A stretch of DNA of 35,958 nucleotides, taken from Limosilactobacillus oris DSM 4864. Its GTDB lineage: Bacteria; Bacillota; Bacilli; Lactobacillales; Lactobacillaceae. The notes under the pieces were generated by a model. That model was not told where the DNA came from and made no database searches. It was given only the letters and a program-made list of their open reading frames with translations. Position 1 is the first letter of the stretch. Every line of letters begins with the position of its first letter. The stretch covers positions 1-35,958 of the forward strand of contig NZ_AZGE01000006.1 in assembly GCF_001434465.1 (NCBI RefSeq). The letters are read 5' to 3'. Positions 21,214-27,057 of this stretch are shown piece after piece. Position numbers and translations under genes: made by a program.

Positions 21214-21263
21214 AAAATGGCAGTGTGAAATGTTGCATAAATAATTATAAGGAAGTGACAAGT

Positions 21264-21839
21264 TTGAAGATTGCTGCGATTGCAGGATCCAATGCGAACC
21301 ATTCTTATAATCGAATGCTGTTAGAGTACATCGCGAAGGACTTTCGCGACACTGACGATGTCGATGTGATTGACATTCGCAAGGTTCCACTATTTAACGA
21401 AAACTACAAGGGTAAGACACCGGACGTAGTAGCTGATATTGACCGCCGGGTAGCTGCGGCCGATGCGGTGATTATTGCCAGTCCCGAATACAACCACTCA
21501 ATTACCTCCGCACTAAAGAGTATGGTAGAGTGGCTTTCTTATGAGCTGCACCCGTTGGAGAACAAGCCCGTTATGATTATCGGGGCTTCGACCCACGAGC
21601 AGGGTTCTTCCCGTTCACAGGTTCAGTTGCGGGATATTTTAATTTCTCCTGGGGTCAACGCCCACGTCTTCCAGGGAGAAGAATTCTTTATGAGCAACGT
21701 TGCCAGCTTGATGGATGAGGATGGCAACATTACTGACCCAGGGACAATCAAATTCCTCGAAAAGTGCATGCGGGAATTTAAGCCCTACGCAGCGGCGATT
21801 AACGGGATGGTTGCGAAAAAGGAGGAGGCAAATAACTAA
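21264..21839 (+). CDS. NADPH-dependent FMN reductase-family flavoprotein
   Basis: 191-residue flavodoxin-fold oxidoreductase that uses NAD(P)H and bound FMN to reduce quinones, azo dyes or free flavin; substrate unknown. It has the N-terminal phosphate loop IAAIAGSNANHSYNRMLLEYI and the family signature IIASPEYNHSITSALKSMVEWLS. The start is TTG 21264, with AAGGAAGTG (21249-21257) at proper distance; an extension to 21225 lacks a ribosome site. Unlike the next protein it has no tail motif. It overlaps the next gene by one base (TAATG), with GGAGGAGG near its own end serving the next start. Confidence 0.9.
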   Translation: MKIAAIAGSNANHSYNRMLLEYIAKDFRDTDDVDVIDIRKVPLFNENYKGKTPDVVADIDRRVAAADAVIIASPEYNHSITSALKSMVEWLSYELHPLENKPVMIIGASTHEQGSSRSQVQLRDILISPGVNAHVFQGEEFFMSNVASLMDEDGNITDPGTIKFLEKCMREFKPYAAAINGMVAKKEEANN

Positions 21840-23086
21840 TGAAAATTTTAGCGCTTGTCGGAACGAACGCAAACTTCTCCTATAACCGGATTTTACTCCA
21901 GTTCATGAAGAAGCACTTCCAGCAGATGGCCGACATTGAAATTTACGAAATTAGCAAGTTGCCCGCTTTCGGGGTCGACGTCCCGCTGAGTGAGCAGACA
22001 GAGGTATGGAAGCTCAAGCAGAAAGTCAAGGCCGCGGATGGGGTGGTGTTCTCCACGCCCGAATACGACCACGGGATTCCAGCAGCCCTCAAGAGCGCGA
22101 CGGAATGGTTATCCTACCACACCGAAGTTTTGAAGCATAAGCCGGTGATGGTTGTTGGGGTTTCTTACGGACGGCAAGCCTCTGCCCGTTCGCAGGTTCA
22201 AATGCGGCAGATTCTGATTTCACCTGACTGTGATGCCAACCTCCTTCCCGGAAACGAAGTGCTGATCGGTGGTGCGAGCCGGGTCTTTTCTAAGGACGGC
22301 CGCTTGATCAACGCCGAGATGCGTGACAACCTGGAAAAATGCTTTACGCACTTTATCGAATACATTCAAGTATTTAAGAATATTACTAAGGAGGAAGCTG
22401 AGATGCCTATTAAACGCCCAACTATCAGTGATGCTTACATTAACTTCCCGACTGGCCGCTTGACCCTGAAGGAAGTTCAACAGATTTTCAGTACGATTCC
22501 GTTTGAAATTGACCTGGTAGATAGCTCTGACCGCTTTGCTTGGTACTCAGACAAGCCCAACCGGGAACACGTCCGCAGCGTGGCTTCGCTGAACGAACCG
22601 GTTACGGAATGCCACCCGCCAAAGGCTGTTCCGATCGTTATGCAAATTATCAACAGCTTCCGTGATGGCAAGAAAGATGTTGTTACCCGGCCATTATGGA
22701 TGAACGGCCACCGCTCTCTGATTCAATACTACGCCCTGCGCGATGTTGACGGCCACTACCTGGGGACGATCGAATTTACGGGGAGTGTTGAATACATCCT
22801 CAACCTGTTTGAAAATGGCGGCTGGGACCAGAATCCGGACGCGACGACTGGTGCCTCCAAGCATGATGATGCTCCAGCAGACGCGGCGGCACCCGTTGCT
22901 GATGCTTCAACTGGTGCTTCGGAATCCTCTGCTGACGATGACACTGCTAGCCCTGCGGAAGCCGCAGGAACGCCAGCTGCGGATAGCGAAGATGGCGACG
23001 ACGCAACGACCGGCGCCTCCGAAAGTGGCAGTGTGGATGCTGACGACGAAACTGCCGATGCTTCTACCGGTGCCTCCGAAAACTAG
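21839..23086 (+). CDS. FMN-reductase domain + PAS-like domain + tail with four DA(S/T)TGAS flavinylation motifs
   Basis: 415 residues in three parts. (1) 1-~185: FMN_red domain, paralogous to the previous gene (LALVGTNANFSYNRILLQF, STPEYDHGIPAALKSATEWLS). (2) ~205-330: a PAS_10-like domain as found after DUF438 (LTLKEVQQIFSTIPFEIDLVDSSDRFAWYSD, CHPPKAVPIVMQIINSFRDGKKD, YYALRDVDGHYLGTIEFTGSVE), likely binding flavin or heme. (3) 331-415: an acidic, Ala-rich, presumably disordered tail with DATTGAS at 334-340 and 388-394 and DASTGAS at 355-361 and 407-413. The motif fits the ApbE target consensus Dxx(s/t)gA(T/S), and ApbE is encoded next. No signal peptide or membrane helix, so cytosolic. Met189 (22403) is a possible second start. 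Confidence 0.88.
   Translation: MKILALVGTNANFSYNRILLQFMKKHFQQMADIEIYEISKLPAFGVDVPLSEQTEVWKLKQKVKAADGVVFSTPEYDHGIPAALKSATEWLSYHTEVLKHKPVMVVGVSYGRQASARSQVQMRQILISPDCDANLLPGNEVLIGGASRVFSKDGRLINAEMRDNLEKCFTHFIEYIQVFKNITKEEAEMPIKRPTISDAYINFPTGRLTLKEVQQIFSTIPFEIDLVDSSDRFAWYSDKPNREHVRSVASLNEPVTECHPPKAVPIVMQIINSFRDGKKDVVTRPLWMNGHRSLIQYYALRDVDGHYLGTIEFTGSVEYILNLFENGGWDQNPDATTGASKHDDAPADAAAPVADASTGASESSADDDTASPAEAAGTPAADSEDGDDATTGASESGSVDADDETADASTGASEN
22388..22405 (+). promoter_or_regulatory. Internal Shine-Dalgarno and in-frame ATG (Met189)
   Basis: AAGGAGG (22388-22394), eight-base spacing, ATG at 22403, in frame with the host gene and located exactly between the FMN-reductase and PAS-like domains. 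It would yield a 227-residue PAS-tail protein. Confidence 0.55.
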
Positions 23087-23088
23087 GG

Positions 23089-24012
23089 ATGGCAAGTGAA
23101 TTGATGGCCCAGCAGCACAGCATGGTTCACCGGGCCCTGGGGACCAAAATTGTGCTGACGGTCTATGGGGACGAGTATTTTCCCCTGCTGAGCCAAGCGA
23201 TGAAGATGATTGATGGCTACGAGGACCGGCTGACGGTCAACCGGCCGGTCTCCGAGGTGATGGCGGTCAACCAGGCTGCCGGGCGGACCCCTAAATTAGT
23301 GTCGCCAACGACCTATGAACTGGTCAAGCTGGCGGTTCATTATAGTCGGGAGAATTTTGGCTTCAATGCCCTGATCGGCCCGCTGGTAAAGCTGTGGAAA
23401 ATCGGTTTTGCCGGGGCGAATGTTCCTAGTGACCAGGCGATTAAGGACCGGCTCCGGCTCATTGATCCCTACCAGGTGCTGCTGGATGATGATAACCGGA
23501 CTGTCTACCTCGAGCAGCCGGGGATGGAATTGGACCTGGGCGGGATCGCAAAGGGCTACATTGCCGACCGGGTCCGGGACTTTTGGCTGGCTCAGGGAGT
23601 TCCTGCTGGGATCATTAACTTGGGCGGCAACCTGGTTTTTGTCGGTCAATCACCCCGGCGAGCAGACGGTCAGTGGATTATTGGTGTCCAGGACCCGCAG
23701 CTCAAGCGGGGGCATGACCTGGAAACGGTTCGCCAGCCGGCGTGCTCGGCGGTGACCTCGGGGATTTACGAGCGCTTCCTGGTAAAGGACGGGCGGCGTT
23801 ACCATCACCTTTTGGATCCCCGGACTGGCTACCCGCTGGAGACCGACCTTAGCAGCGTAACGGTCTTTACTGACCAGTCGGTGCTGGGTGAAATCGAGGC
23901 CAAACGGCTCTTCTTTAACGGGGCGCCCTTGGCTGGCTGGGCGAGTCACCCGGGCAACCGGGGGGCGGTCTTTATTCACAATGACGAACGCGTCGAAAAT
24001 ATAAATATTTAA
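23089..24012 (+). CDS. apbE: FAD:protein FMN transferase (ApbE family)
   Basis: Moves FMN from FAD onto a Thr/Ser of target proteins, with Mg2+. The 307-residue protein shows the ApbE motifs PGMELDLGGIAKGYIADRVRDF, INLGGNLVFVG, SAVTSGIYERF and HHLLDPRTGYPLETDLSSVTV. Near the end, where many family members have AD-x-LST-x-LF, this one reads GEIEAKRLFF, a changed metal-site segment. It lacks a signal peptide and lipobox, so it acts in the cytosol. It starts 2 bp after the multi-motif protein and is almost certainly coexpressed; that protein is the obvious substrate. A later ATG at 23104 is an alternative start. Confidence 0.93.
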   Translation: MASELMAQQHSMVHRALGTKIVLTVYGDEYFPLLSQAMKMIDGYEDRLTVNRPVSEVMAVNQAAGRTPKLVSPTTYELVKLAVHYSRENFGFNALIGPLVKLWKIGFAGANVPSDQAIKDRLRLIDPYQVLLDDDNRTVYLEQPGMELDLGGIAKGYIADRVRDFWLAQGVPAGIINLGGNLVFVGQSPRRADGQWIIGVQDPQLKRGHDLETVRQPACSAVTSGIYERFLVKDGRRYHHLLDPRTGYPLETDLSSVTVFTDQSVLGEIEAKRLFFNGAPLAGWASHPGNRGAVFIHNDERVENINI

Positions 24013-24019
24013 AATGGGG

Positions 24020-24064
24020 GACGGCCGCTGAGCACTAGCTGTATGCTTGGCGGCCGTCTTTTTT
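24020..24064 (+). terminator. Terminator after apbE
   Basis: GACGGCCGC (24020-24028) pairs with GCGGCCGTC (24050-24058), inner AGCA/TGCT, followed by six T. Confidence 0.93.
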
Positions 24065-25836: not shown

Positions 25837-25878
25837 TAACGGGGAAGTAACTTTAATTTTTACGGGGGGTTATTAGTG

Positions 25879-27057
25879 ATGGTAAACAGAAACGTTAATC
25901 AGGCGGAAGTTAAGCAGCGGTTCAGCTTGCGAAAGCTCAAGATTGGCACCGTATCAGTACTCTTGGGGGCCACTTTCTTCCTCCTTGGTGGCAATGGTTC
26001 GGTCAAGGCGGATACGGCTAACCCTGGTTCGGCCACCGTCCAAGTTTCGGCGAGTCACCAGGAGCAGGTAAACAACCAGCAGCAGACTCAGGATGCAATC
26101 AAACTGGTTCAACAGGACCTGGGCGATAATGGCGAAGTCCAGAGCGACCAGGCGGTAACGATTGACCGGACCATCCACTACCAAGAACAGGGAACTAATA
26201 AAACGCTGGCGGATGATGCTAACCAAAATATCAGTATCGTGCCCTACTACCAGCTTGGGCACGTCACGGTTAACTACGTCGACCAAGATGAAGGCAATAA
26301 GGTTTTTGCTTCTAAACCGTTGAGTGGCCGGCGCGGGAGTGCGGTTAACTATGATGCGCAAAACACTATTTTTGATTATGAAAATATGGGTTATGAATTA
26401 GTGTCGAATGATTATCCGCAGGACGCGACCTTTACTGGCACGCCGCAGGTCTTTACGATTGTGTTTAAGCACCTTACAACGCCGGTGACGCCGGACAATC
26501 CAAATGTTCCCCGGACAGTTGCTCTTTACGCCGCGGCGGGCGCAGACCAGGCCCAGGACGAGGACGGTCTTTACTATGACCTTGTTCAGGGCAACAAGAT
26601 TATCGCGAAGGGCTTGACGAAGGATCAGGCCTGGGCAAAACTGGCAGAAATCGTTTCGCCGGAGATTGTTGGTTACCACCTAGTAAACAATAAGCAAAAG
26701 GTGATTGACGACCTGATCGCTGACGCCCAGGCGAATAGGCACACCGTCTATACGGTCTACTACACCCGGGACCAGCAGCCAACCCCGACCCCAGCTCCAG
26801 GTGAGACACCAACGACGACCCCCGCGGAAACGCCAGTAACGCCGGAAACGACTGGCCACGAGACTGCTACTCCGGTAGGGGGGGTCCAGACTGGCCGGAC
26901 AGCGCTTGTTAGTGCCACTACTACTAAGCAGGCGGCTTCAGCAACCCAATTGCCGCAAACGGGGACGCAAGCAGGACGGGAGAGTGTGCTGGGCTTAGGC
27001 GTAGCAATGCTCACCACGCTGTTTGGCCTGTTGGGAATTAAGAAACGCGAATATTAA
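25879..27057 (+). CDS. LPXTG-anchored surface protein with YSIRK-type signal and MucBP-like region
   Basis: 392-residue cell-wall protein, anchored by sortase A. The N-terminus has a YSIRK-like signal (RFSLRKLKIGTVSVLLGATFFLLGG). Then come a Gln-rich segment, a MucBP/Mub-like unit (HVTVNYVDQDEGNKVF to FTIVFKHLTTPVTPDNP, about 130-215), a further domain (VALYAAAGADQAQDEDGLYYDL to YTVYYTRDQQ) and a Pro/Thr stalk. LPQTG (about 358-362), a hydrophobic helix and KKREY end the protein. It probably binds mucus or another host surface; this is inference. ATG 25879 is taken over GTG 25876 by distance from GGGGGG (25864-25869). One MucBP-like unit is few compared with large mucus-binding proteins. Confidence 0.88.
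   Translation: MVNRNVNQAEVKQRFSLRKLKIGTVSVLLGATFFLLGGNGSVKADTANPGSATVQVSASHQEQVNNQQQTQDAIKLVQQDLGDNGEVQSDQAVTIDRTIHYQEQGTNKTLADDANQNISIVPYYQLGHVTVNYVDQDEGNKVFASKPLSGRRGSAVNYDAQNTIFDYENMGYELVSNDYPQDATFTGTPQVFTIVFKHLTTPVTPDNPNVPRTVALYAAAGADQAQDEDGLYYDLVQGNKIIAKGLTKDQAWAKLAEIVSPEIVGYHLVNNKQKVIDDLIADAQANRHTVYTVYYTRDQQPTPTPAPGETPTTTPAETPVTPETTGHETATPVGGVQTGRTALVSATTTKQAASATQLPQTGTQAGRESVLGLGVAMLTTLFGLLGIKKREY

Follow-up and report, generated by a model that had tools for sequence, protein, structure and literature searches.

The 415-aa protein encoded at positions 21839-23086 of the Limosilactobacillus oris DSM 4864 sequence analysed here combines a flavin reductase (FMN_red) and a PAS_10 domain with a C-terminal tail that holds four ApbE-type flavinylation motifs. 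From the conservation of these peptide motifs, their linkage to apbE and the absence of FMN_bind matches over the cut-off, we conclude that the tail is very probably what the ApbE of the operon modifies, and flavinylation at one site or more can, on the evidence of sequence, be expected with considerable confidence. The same three lines of evidence support, by inference, the earlier note on this DNA, which had proposed the tail as an ApbE substrate. Its further remark that no FMN_bind-free, multi-site tail of this kind was known to be described is not supported as a sign of novelty, as related FMN_bind-free FMN_red proteins of Lactococcus with one or two C-terminal motifs were reported to be flavinylated in 2024 (PMC11334425).

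Organization of the locus and of the tail

The window, i.e. the whole stretch of 35,958 nucleotides that was analysed, lies on contig 56 of a 2.03-Mb genome. Three consecutive genes on its + strand, encoding a stand-alone FMN_red protein, the 415-aa protein and ApbE, form a presumed operon. The last base of the first gene overlaps the start codon of the second, and the real start of the first gene is uncertain and possibly lies a few codons further in. With the stop codon of the 415-aa gene ending at 23086 and the apbE ATG beginning at 23089, the latter two genes are, as initially described, separated by 2 bp. The features are as follows:

21225..21839, + strand: stand-alone FMN_red protein (NAD(P)H-dependent FMN reductase family; Pfam FMN_red 121.9 bits, cut-off 24)
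21839..23086, + strand: protein of 415 aa with FMN_red, PAS_10 and multi-motif tail (translation, Pfam)
22478..22777, + strand: PAS_10 domain (PF13596), residues 214-313 (Pfam 54.7 bits, cut-off 22.1)
22829..23083, + strand: acidic, Ala-rich, low-complexity C-terminal tail, residues 331-415 (composition, shuffle test)
22838..22858, + strand: ApbE motif 1, DATTGAS, residues 334-340, presumed acceptor Ser340 (translation; intact in 23 of 24 tails)
22901..22921, + strand: ApbE motif 2, DASTGAS, residues 355-361, presumed acceptor Ser361 (translation; intact in 24 of 24 tails)
23000..23020, + strand: ApbE motif 3, DATTGAS, residues 388-394, presumed acceptor Ser394 (translation; intact in 22 of 24 tails)
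23057..23077, + strand: ApbE motif 4, DASTGAS, residues 407-413, presumed acceptor Ser413 (translation; intact in 24 of 24 tails)
23089..24012, + strand: ApbE, FAD:protein FMN transferase, apparently cytosolic (Pfam PF02424 226.3 bits, cut-off 25.6)
24038..24054, + strand: terminator-like hairpin followed by a T run, 3' of apbE (consensus scan alone)

The intactness of motifs 1 to 4 was counted by eye in 24 aligned Limosilactobacillus-type tails. The terminator call is weak, since the region gave two such hairpins compared to 3.8 expected from shuffles. No Rfam family, the FMN riboswitch included, exceeded its threshold in the window and ten related loci, in a search run without a positive control.

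The flavin reductase-PAS architecture that had been read from the translation was confirmed, as both domains exceed their Pfam cut-offs (FMN_red at residues 1-145 with 110.5 bits), and the N-terminus of the 415-aa protein is the beginning of the FMN_red fold. The closest named relatives of the PAS domain belong to Limosilactobacillus (Candidatus L. intestinipullorum and L. panis), and the PAS_10 profile finds the solved structures 3CAX (PF0695) and 2QKP, both of which are listed as uncharacterized. By simple scans, neither a lipobox nor a membrane stretch was detected in any of the three operon proteins, in agreement with the cytosolic location that had been assumed for the tail protein. A second PAS_10-like protein of 145 aa (L174; G000:C12:182626-183006), which lacks a motif, is encoded in the same genome. 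Positions 25876-27057 of the window further encode a protein of surface type whose C-terminus bears an LPQTG sortase-type signal, as read from the translation.

The tail itself is acidic and Ala-rich, as noted before, and contains 22 Asp/Glu, 23 Ala, a single Lys/Arg and no aromatic residue among its 85 positions. In a 2025 review, the motif of ApbE substrates is defined as D-x-x-[S/T]-G-A-[S/T], with seven residues as the minimal length (PMC12052999). Across the six frames of the window, a scan for this motif returned only the four tail copies, and translation places the DA(T/S)TGAS sequences exactly at residues 334-340, 355-361, 388-394 and 407-413, where they had been reported. At the level of the whole genome, a strict DNA pattern gave five matches, namely the four in the tail and one in a second protein (see below), and a control pattern gave none.

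As the tail is of low complexity and rich in Ala and Asp, and as its linkers turn over quickly, one could imagine that the motifs are a product of chance or of repeat expansion, an explanation to which we assign next to no weight. When the tail was shuffled 200,000 times, 195,804 shuffles contained no motif, 4,157 contained one, 39 contained two and none contained three or more, for which reason chance was rejected. A repeat artefact was rejected on account of the codons, which vary between the motif copies, and of the fact that the linkers turn over and the motifs stay. In addition, the motif columns are conserved like the PAS domain, and motifs recur in most of the related loci.

Conservation of the motifs among relatives

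When the named genomes were scanned with aligned PAS domains, 72 loci were obtained. All of them carry Lactobacillaceae or Streptococcaceae labels, save for one that is assigned to Bacillota and nothing narrower, and for three, from two assemblies, that bear the label Bifidobacteriaceae. The Bifidobacteriaceae-labelled contigs (L126, L133 and L139) hold lactobacillus-like PAS-tail genes, with seven motifs in one frame, and the assemblies are probably mislabelled. One to seven motifs are carried by 65 of the 72 loci (one motif in 7 PAS-containing frames, two in 14, three in 10, four in 24, five in 6, six in 3 and seven in 1). The outcome that the earlier note had named as speaking against its reading, homologues next to apbE without motif conservation, was looked for and did not appear. 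Among the seven motif-free frames, L165 is broken, and L167-L172 represent a split, Lactococcus-type arrangement in which the motifs sit on the neighbouring FMN_red protein in five of the six loci.

When the 24 Limosilactobacillus-type tails, the one from the window among them, were aligned, identity was 90.9% in the motif columns, which are free of gaps, a figure that depends on the motifs themselves anchoring the alignment. The PAS domain of the same set has 89.7% identity, and the linkers have 37.3% identity with 13.1% gaps. Where the motif residues of these tails agree, their codons differ in 58.8% of the pairs. Since the motif columns are kept while the codons differ, it is the peptide and not the DNA that is under selection, which extends to relatives what the synonymous differences between the four repeats had first indicated. 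The acceptor residue is Ser in 215 of 216 motifs.

The alignments took in 28 of 34 PAS stretches (A1), the window together with 30 of 31 frames with a recognised start, ten further fused frames being passed over (A2), and 24 of 30 (A3). The locus sets overlap and the samples are not independent, with L061 lying on the contig of L128, and L022-L024 on the contigs of L155, L153 and L151. In a phylum sample of 398 genomes, the strict DNA pattern for DA[S/T]TGA[S/T] had any match in 37 genomes, the present one included, and clustered matches in the present genome only; this says little about other lactobacilli, since spellings like DATSGAS escape the pattern and only two further genomes from this order were sampled. 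Second, stand-alone PAS proteins were also seen in genomes of the genus (L175-L179), with an intact motif near the end in two of the five (L176 and L177) and look-alikes in the others.

Linkage to apbE and occurrence of FMN_bind

At 50 of the 72 loci, an ApbE frame either overlaps the PAS gene or begins no more than 50 bp from where that gene ends, and at 58 loci ApbE is found anywhere in the fetched stretch. No ApbE lies within the fetched stretch at the other 14 loci, some of which are ended by contig ends. ApbE is present in 181 of 301 Lactobacillaceae genomes of a family sample, and in all 39 Lactobacillaceae genomes for which, among the matches listed, there is one that covers the PAS part (compared by eye). 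In a sample of 50 genomes of the genus, the fused gene occurs in 35 (E 3e-60 or better), every one of which has ApbE, the overall number of genomes with ApbE being 47.

That the ApbE serves an FMN_bind protein encoded elsewhere in the genome was considered and rejected, as the sole FMN_bind match of the genome stays below the cut-off (E 0.11). The 415-aa protein itself has no FMN_bind domain according to Pfam. Since the genome holds a single ApbE match (23089..24012) and no FMN_bind domain over the cut-off, the tail would be the obvious substrate. In a set of 15 genomes of the genus, an FMN_bind match is absent from eight, all of which have the fused gene; five genomes have both, and the two without the fused gene (G005 and G154) both have FMN_bind.

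The ApbE subfamily

The best solved relative of the window ApbE is 7ESA, the Listeria FmnB, for which a catalytic triad of Asp301-Ser257-His273 is given (PMC12052999). With the active-site positions assigned from the spacing in the 7ESA alignment, Ser224, Arg229 and His240 are kept in the window ApbE, whereas Glu268 takes the place of the triad Asp and Lys272 that of a Thr; Asp and Thr are found at these positions in the solved Listeria and Treponema relatives. Residues 267-276, which hold both replacements, read GEIEAKRLFF. Counts were made in 50 PAS-linked ApbE frames that are longer than 250 aa and neither Lactococcus-type nor reductase-linked. Among these, Glu stands for the triad Asp in 50 and Lys for Thr in 47, Ser224 is kept in 42 (Thr in 8), and Arg229 and His240 are kept in all. 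Glu and Thr are found in five of five Lactococcus-type ApbEs, and the three reductase-linked (fumarate-reductase-like) ApbEs have Glu in two cases, Asp in one and Thr in all.

Given the two replacements relative to the solved enzymes, it could be argued that the tail stays unflavinylated, that the altered ApbE does something else (e.g. FAD hydrolysis) and that the motifs are kept for another reason. We regard this as quite improbable. The uniform presence of Glu and Lys in the PAS-linked ApbEs speaks against decay, the remaining active-site residues are largely or fully kept, and Glu likewise occurs in the Lactococcus-type and in two of the three fumarate-reductase-linked enzymes. Furthermore, FMN_red proteins of Lactococcus are flavinylated by their cognate ApbE (PMC11334425), an enzyme known to us by its description. 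Lastly, the selection that acts on the motifs would be left unexplained.

Relation to known flavinylated proteins

The nearest known system is that of the Lactococcus FMN_red proteins described by Huang et al. (2024; PMC11334425). Their C-terminus is extended and bears one to two motifs, apbE is co-localised, and they were flavinylated when coexpressed with the cognate ApbE in E. coli, the predicted Ser/Thr being needed. With these the 415-aa protein shares the FMN_red fold, the unstructured, motif-bearing C-terminal extension and the adjoining apbE. As far as the published description goes, it differs in two respects, namely (i) the number of motifs, with four in the 415-aa protein and up to seven in its relatives compared to one to two, and (ii) the PAS_10 domain fused between FMN_red and the tail. 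The present loci further include PAS-tail proteins without FMN_red, unlike the FMN_red proteins described there. A whole-word search of the main text of PMC11334425 did not find the word 'PAS'.

Among our split loci, four (L168, L169, L170 and L172) encode an FMN_red protein with two to three tail motifs, ApbE and then a separate, tail-free PAS protein; L171 has an FMN_red protein with four motifs and a PAS gene of the same family, with no ApbE recognised, and L167 has ApbE and PAS, with no FMN_red in its listing. The 415-aa protein looks like a fused, extended form of this Lactococcus FMN_red-tail/ApbE/PAS system. The Lactococcus-type FMN_red tails (L168, L169, L170, L172 and also L171) contain GWWIE-type sequences between the flavin motifs, which are perhaps docking elements.

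In a reading that resembles the one given for the Lactococcus proteins (PMC11334425), the tail might simply anchor the enzyme's own cofactor, so that one tail flavin at a time would occupy the FMN_red (or PAS) pocket and additional motifs would merely raise the chance of one being filled. The L. lactis model, which puts the tail sites near the conserved flavin site (PMC11334425), is consistent with this, and one motif can suffice, since seven of the 72 loci hold only one. We nevertheless consider it unlikely, as at least one motif is kept in 22 of the 23 stand-alone PAS frames that have no FMN_red domain, most of them having at least two. Moreover, none of the four motif positions is intact in fewer than 22 of the 24 close relatives, which is above what would be expected of spare copies.

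Three other systems bear comparison. The multi-flavinylated proteins of Meheust et al. (2021; PMC8238504), whose defining feature is the presence of two or more FMN-binding domains and for which multi-flavin electron transfer was proposed, also have several ApbE sites per chain. Predictions generally place these proteins outside the cytosol, whereas the 415-aa protein has bare seven-residue motifs in an apparently cytosolic tail and no FMN_bind domain. In Klebsiella pneumoniae, according to the review PMC12052999, a cytosolic ApbE modifies a soluble fumarate reductase; that enzyme and the operon ApbE are both signal-less with a cytosolic flavoprotein as substrate (here a predicted one), which in the present case would be a tandem tail array. 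The Flavin-tag, an engineered terminal DxxxGA[T/S] peptide modified by ApbE (PMC10722498), was designed for labelling, whereas the tail of the 415-aa protein is natural, multiple and conserved. In the openly licensed papers that we consulted, we found no description of a PAS_10 fusion, of arrays of up to seven motifs, of FMN_red-free PAS-tail proteins or of a second tagged family.

Gene neighbourhoods and proposed function

The 72 loci comprise 41 FMN_red-PAS fusions, 23 loci with PAS alone, six split ones and two in which the protein is further fused to a reductase. A stand-alone FMN_red relative is found near the PAS gene at all 41 fused-type loci. The two reductase fusions, both from Secundilactobacillus (L128, 5407-8478; L130, 5419-8484), are chains of about 1,020 aa with FMN_red, PAS_10, tail motif, FMN_bind and FAD_binding_2, and one of their two motifs sits in the FMN_bind stretch. 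Their domains were scanned in L061 (8578-11637; same contig as L128), where the fusion also exceeds the cut-off of a flavocytochrome c model. At three Liquorilactobacillus loci (L022-L024), the fused gene follows directly on the gene of a protein that combines FAD_binding_2 and FMN_bind (domains scanned in L022; FMN_red start seen in L050, which shows this place with longer flanks).

Near the 23 stand-alone PAS loci, we found an SpxB-like pyruvate oxidase at 13, ApbE at 16, FAD synthetase at 10 (two of these with no more than 26% identity to the query and at a distance of about 4 kb) and a lactate-oxidase-like protein at five, besides an AraC regulator at eight. The two pyruvate oxidases that were scanned both exceed the SpxB cut-off, and the one lactate-oxidase-like neighbour that was scanned is below the cut-off of its model. 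In Lacticaseibacillus and kin (L134-L136, L140-L143 and L145-L147), the SpxB-like pyruvate oxidase is present at ten of ten loci, and FAD synthetase and ApbE at eight each. The neighbours of the stand-alone PAS loci are flavoenzymes, or makers of the ApbE substrate FAD. Coexpression of an FAD synthase raises flavin incorporation into the Flavin-tag (PMC10722498), an effect that fits these natural neighbourhoods of FAD synthetase, PAS-tail and ApbE, since extra FAD synthase helps tagging by ApbE.

The FAD synthetase genes near 10 of the 23 stand-alone loci, with the two weaker cases included, could also point to a flavin status sensor or store, in which the degree of tail flavinylation would report the FAD supply and be read by the PAS domain or by partners. 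PAS domains often act as sensors. From our point of view this is improbable, since the FMN linkage is termed irreversible (PMC12052999) and would be poorly suited to such a role; the Rfam search described above, run without a positive control, also returned no FMN riboswitch.

The earlier note had suggested a flavin wire or an electron store, sensed or gated by the PAS domain. Of an electron-carrying arm and a store, the former would be better in line with the gene neighbourhoods, and the reductase fusions (L128 and L130) are the strongest pointer to electron transfer. It is, in our estimation, reasonably probable that the tail acts as an electron-carrying multi-FMN arm, i.e. as a natural multi-copy 'flavin tag'. 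The cytosolic ApbE would move FMN from FAD onto the last Ser of several or all four motifs, a transfer that we infer from motif, linkage and selection, and the flexible acidic tail would form a swinging arm bearing several FMN groups. NAD(P)H would charge these groups in the active site of FMN_red, and other flavoproteins would take over the electrons, with PAS_10, the constant core of the family, as a docking or sensing module. PAS-tail proteins without FMN_red could possibly be charged by the adjoining SpxB-like pyruvate oxidase. Against a multi-FMN arm speak the near-uniform Ser acceptors, given that Thr is reported to be the acceptor preferred by ApbE (PMC12052999), the altered ApbE residues, the 14 loci at which no ApbE was seen, and the lack of an FMN_bind match over the cut-off that could point to a downstream acceptor in the present genome.

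A candidate second substrate family

The fifth match of the strict pattern lies in a small protein (G000:C16:9297-9752; L038:1072-1530) that ends in DASTGASAH and is preceded in L038 by a gene which we take to be greA-like. Its likeness to HesB/IscA is weak: PF01521 is matched by 8 of 24 relatives at E values of 0.1 or lower (8e-4 for the best), and a search with its profile hits 2APN (HI1723) at E 0.046. In a survey of 87 family members from 48 genomes of the genus, at least one member with an intact C-terminal motif is present in 31 of the 33 genomes that have the fused gene vs. 3 of the 15 that do not (Fisher p 5e-7, kinship ignored). The three in the latter group, G307, G313 and G315, all lack an ApbE match; the completeness of G313 and G315 is 66% and 75%, respectively, and that of G307 is 93%, which makes G307 a true counterexample to the HesB-like motif going together with the ApbE system.

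Genomes without the fused gene encode HesB-like proteins with look-alikes such as DTVAGAS or DTVASAS, and the second HesB-like member of the present genome ends in DASTAAS. Since such look-alikes are frequent C-termini where the fused gene is missing, the tag may derive from an older C-terminus. The HesB-like family is thus no more than a candidate for a second family of ApbE substrates.

Conclusion

Taken across the lactobacilli, we tentatively propose a wider scheme, which we hold to be possible rather than probable. In this scheme, one signal-less ApbE of an altered subfamily would tag several unrelated cytosolic proteins, namely FMN_red-PAS proteins (with tandem tags), PAS proteins alone (with up to seven tags) and small HesB-like proteins (with a C-terminal tag), and the resulting mobile multi-FMN arms would connect NAD(P)H and pyruvate oxidase with enzymes resembling fumarate reductase. 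Work on ApbE flavinylation has so far dealt mainly with extracytosolic proteins and with folded domains. If the proposal is true, this modification would extend to flexible tails in the cytosol that bear short linear motifs in tandem. Many lactic acid bacteria lack cytochromes, and for this group of organisms the tail would represent a covalent multi-flavin carrier. In the neighbourhoods that combine SpxB, FAD synthetase, PAS-tail and ApbE, such a carrier would offer the electrons of pyruvate oxidase a route other than oxygen.
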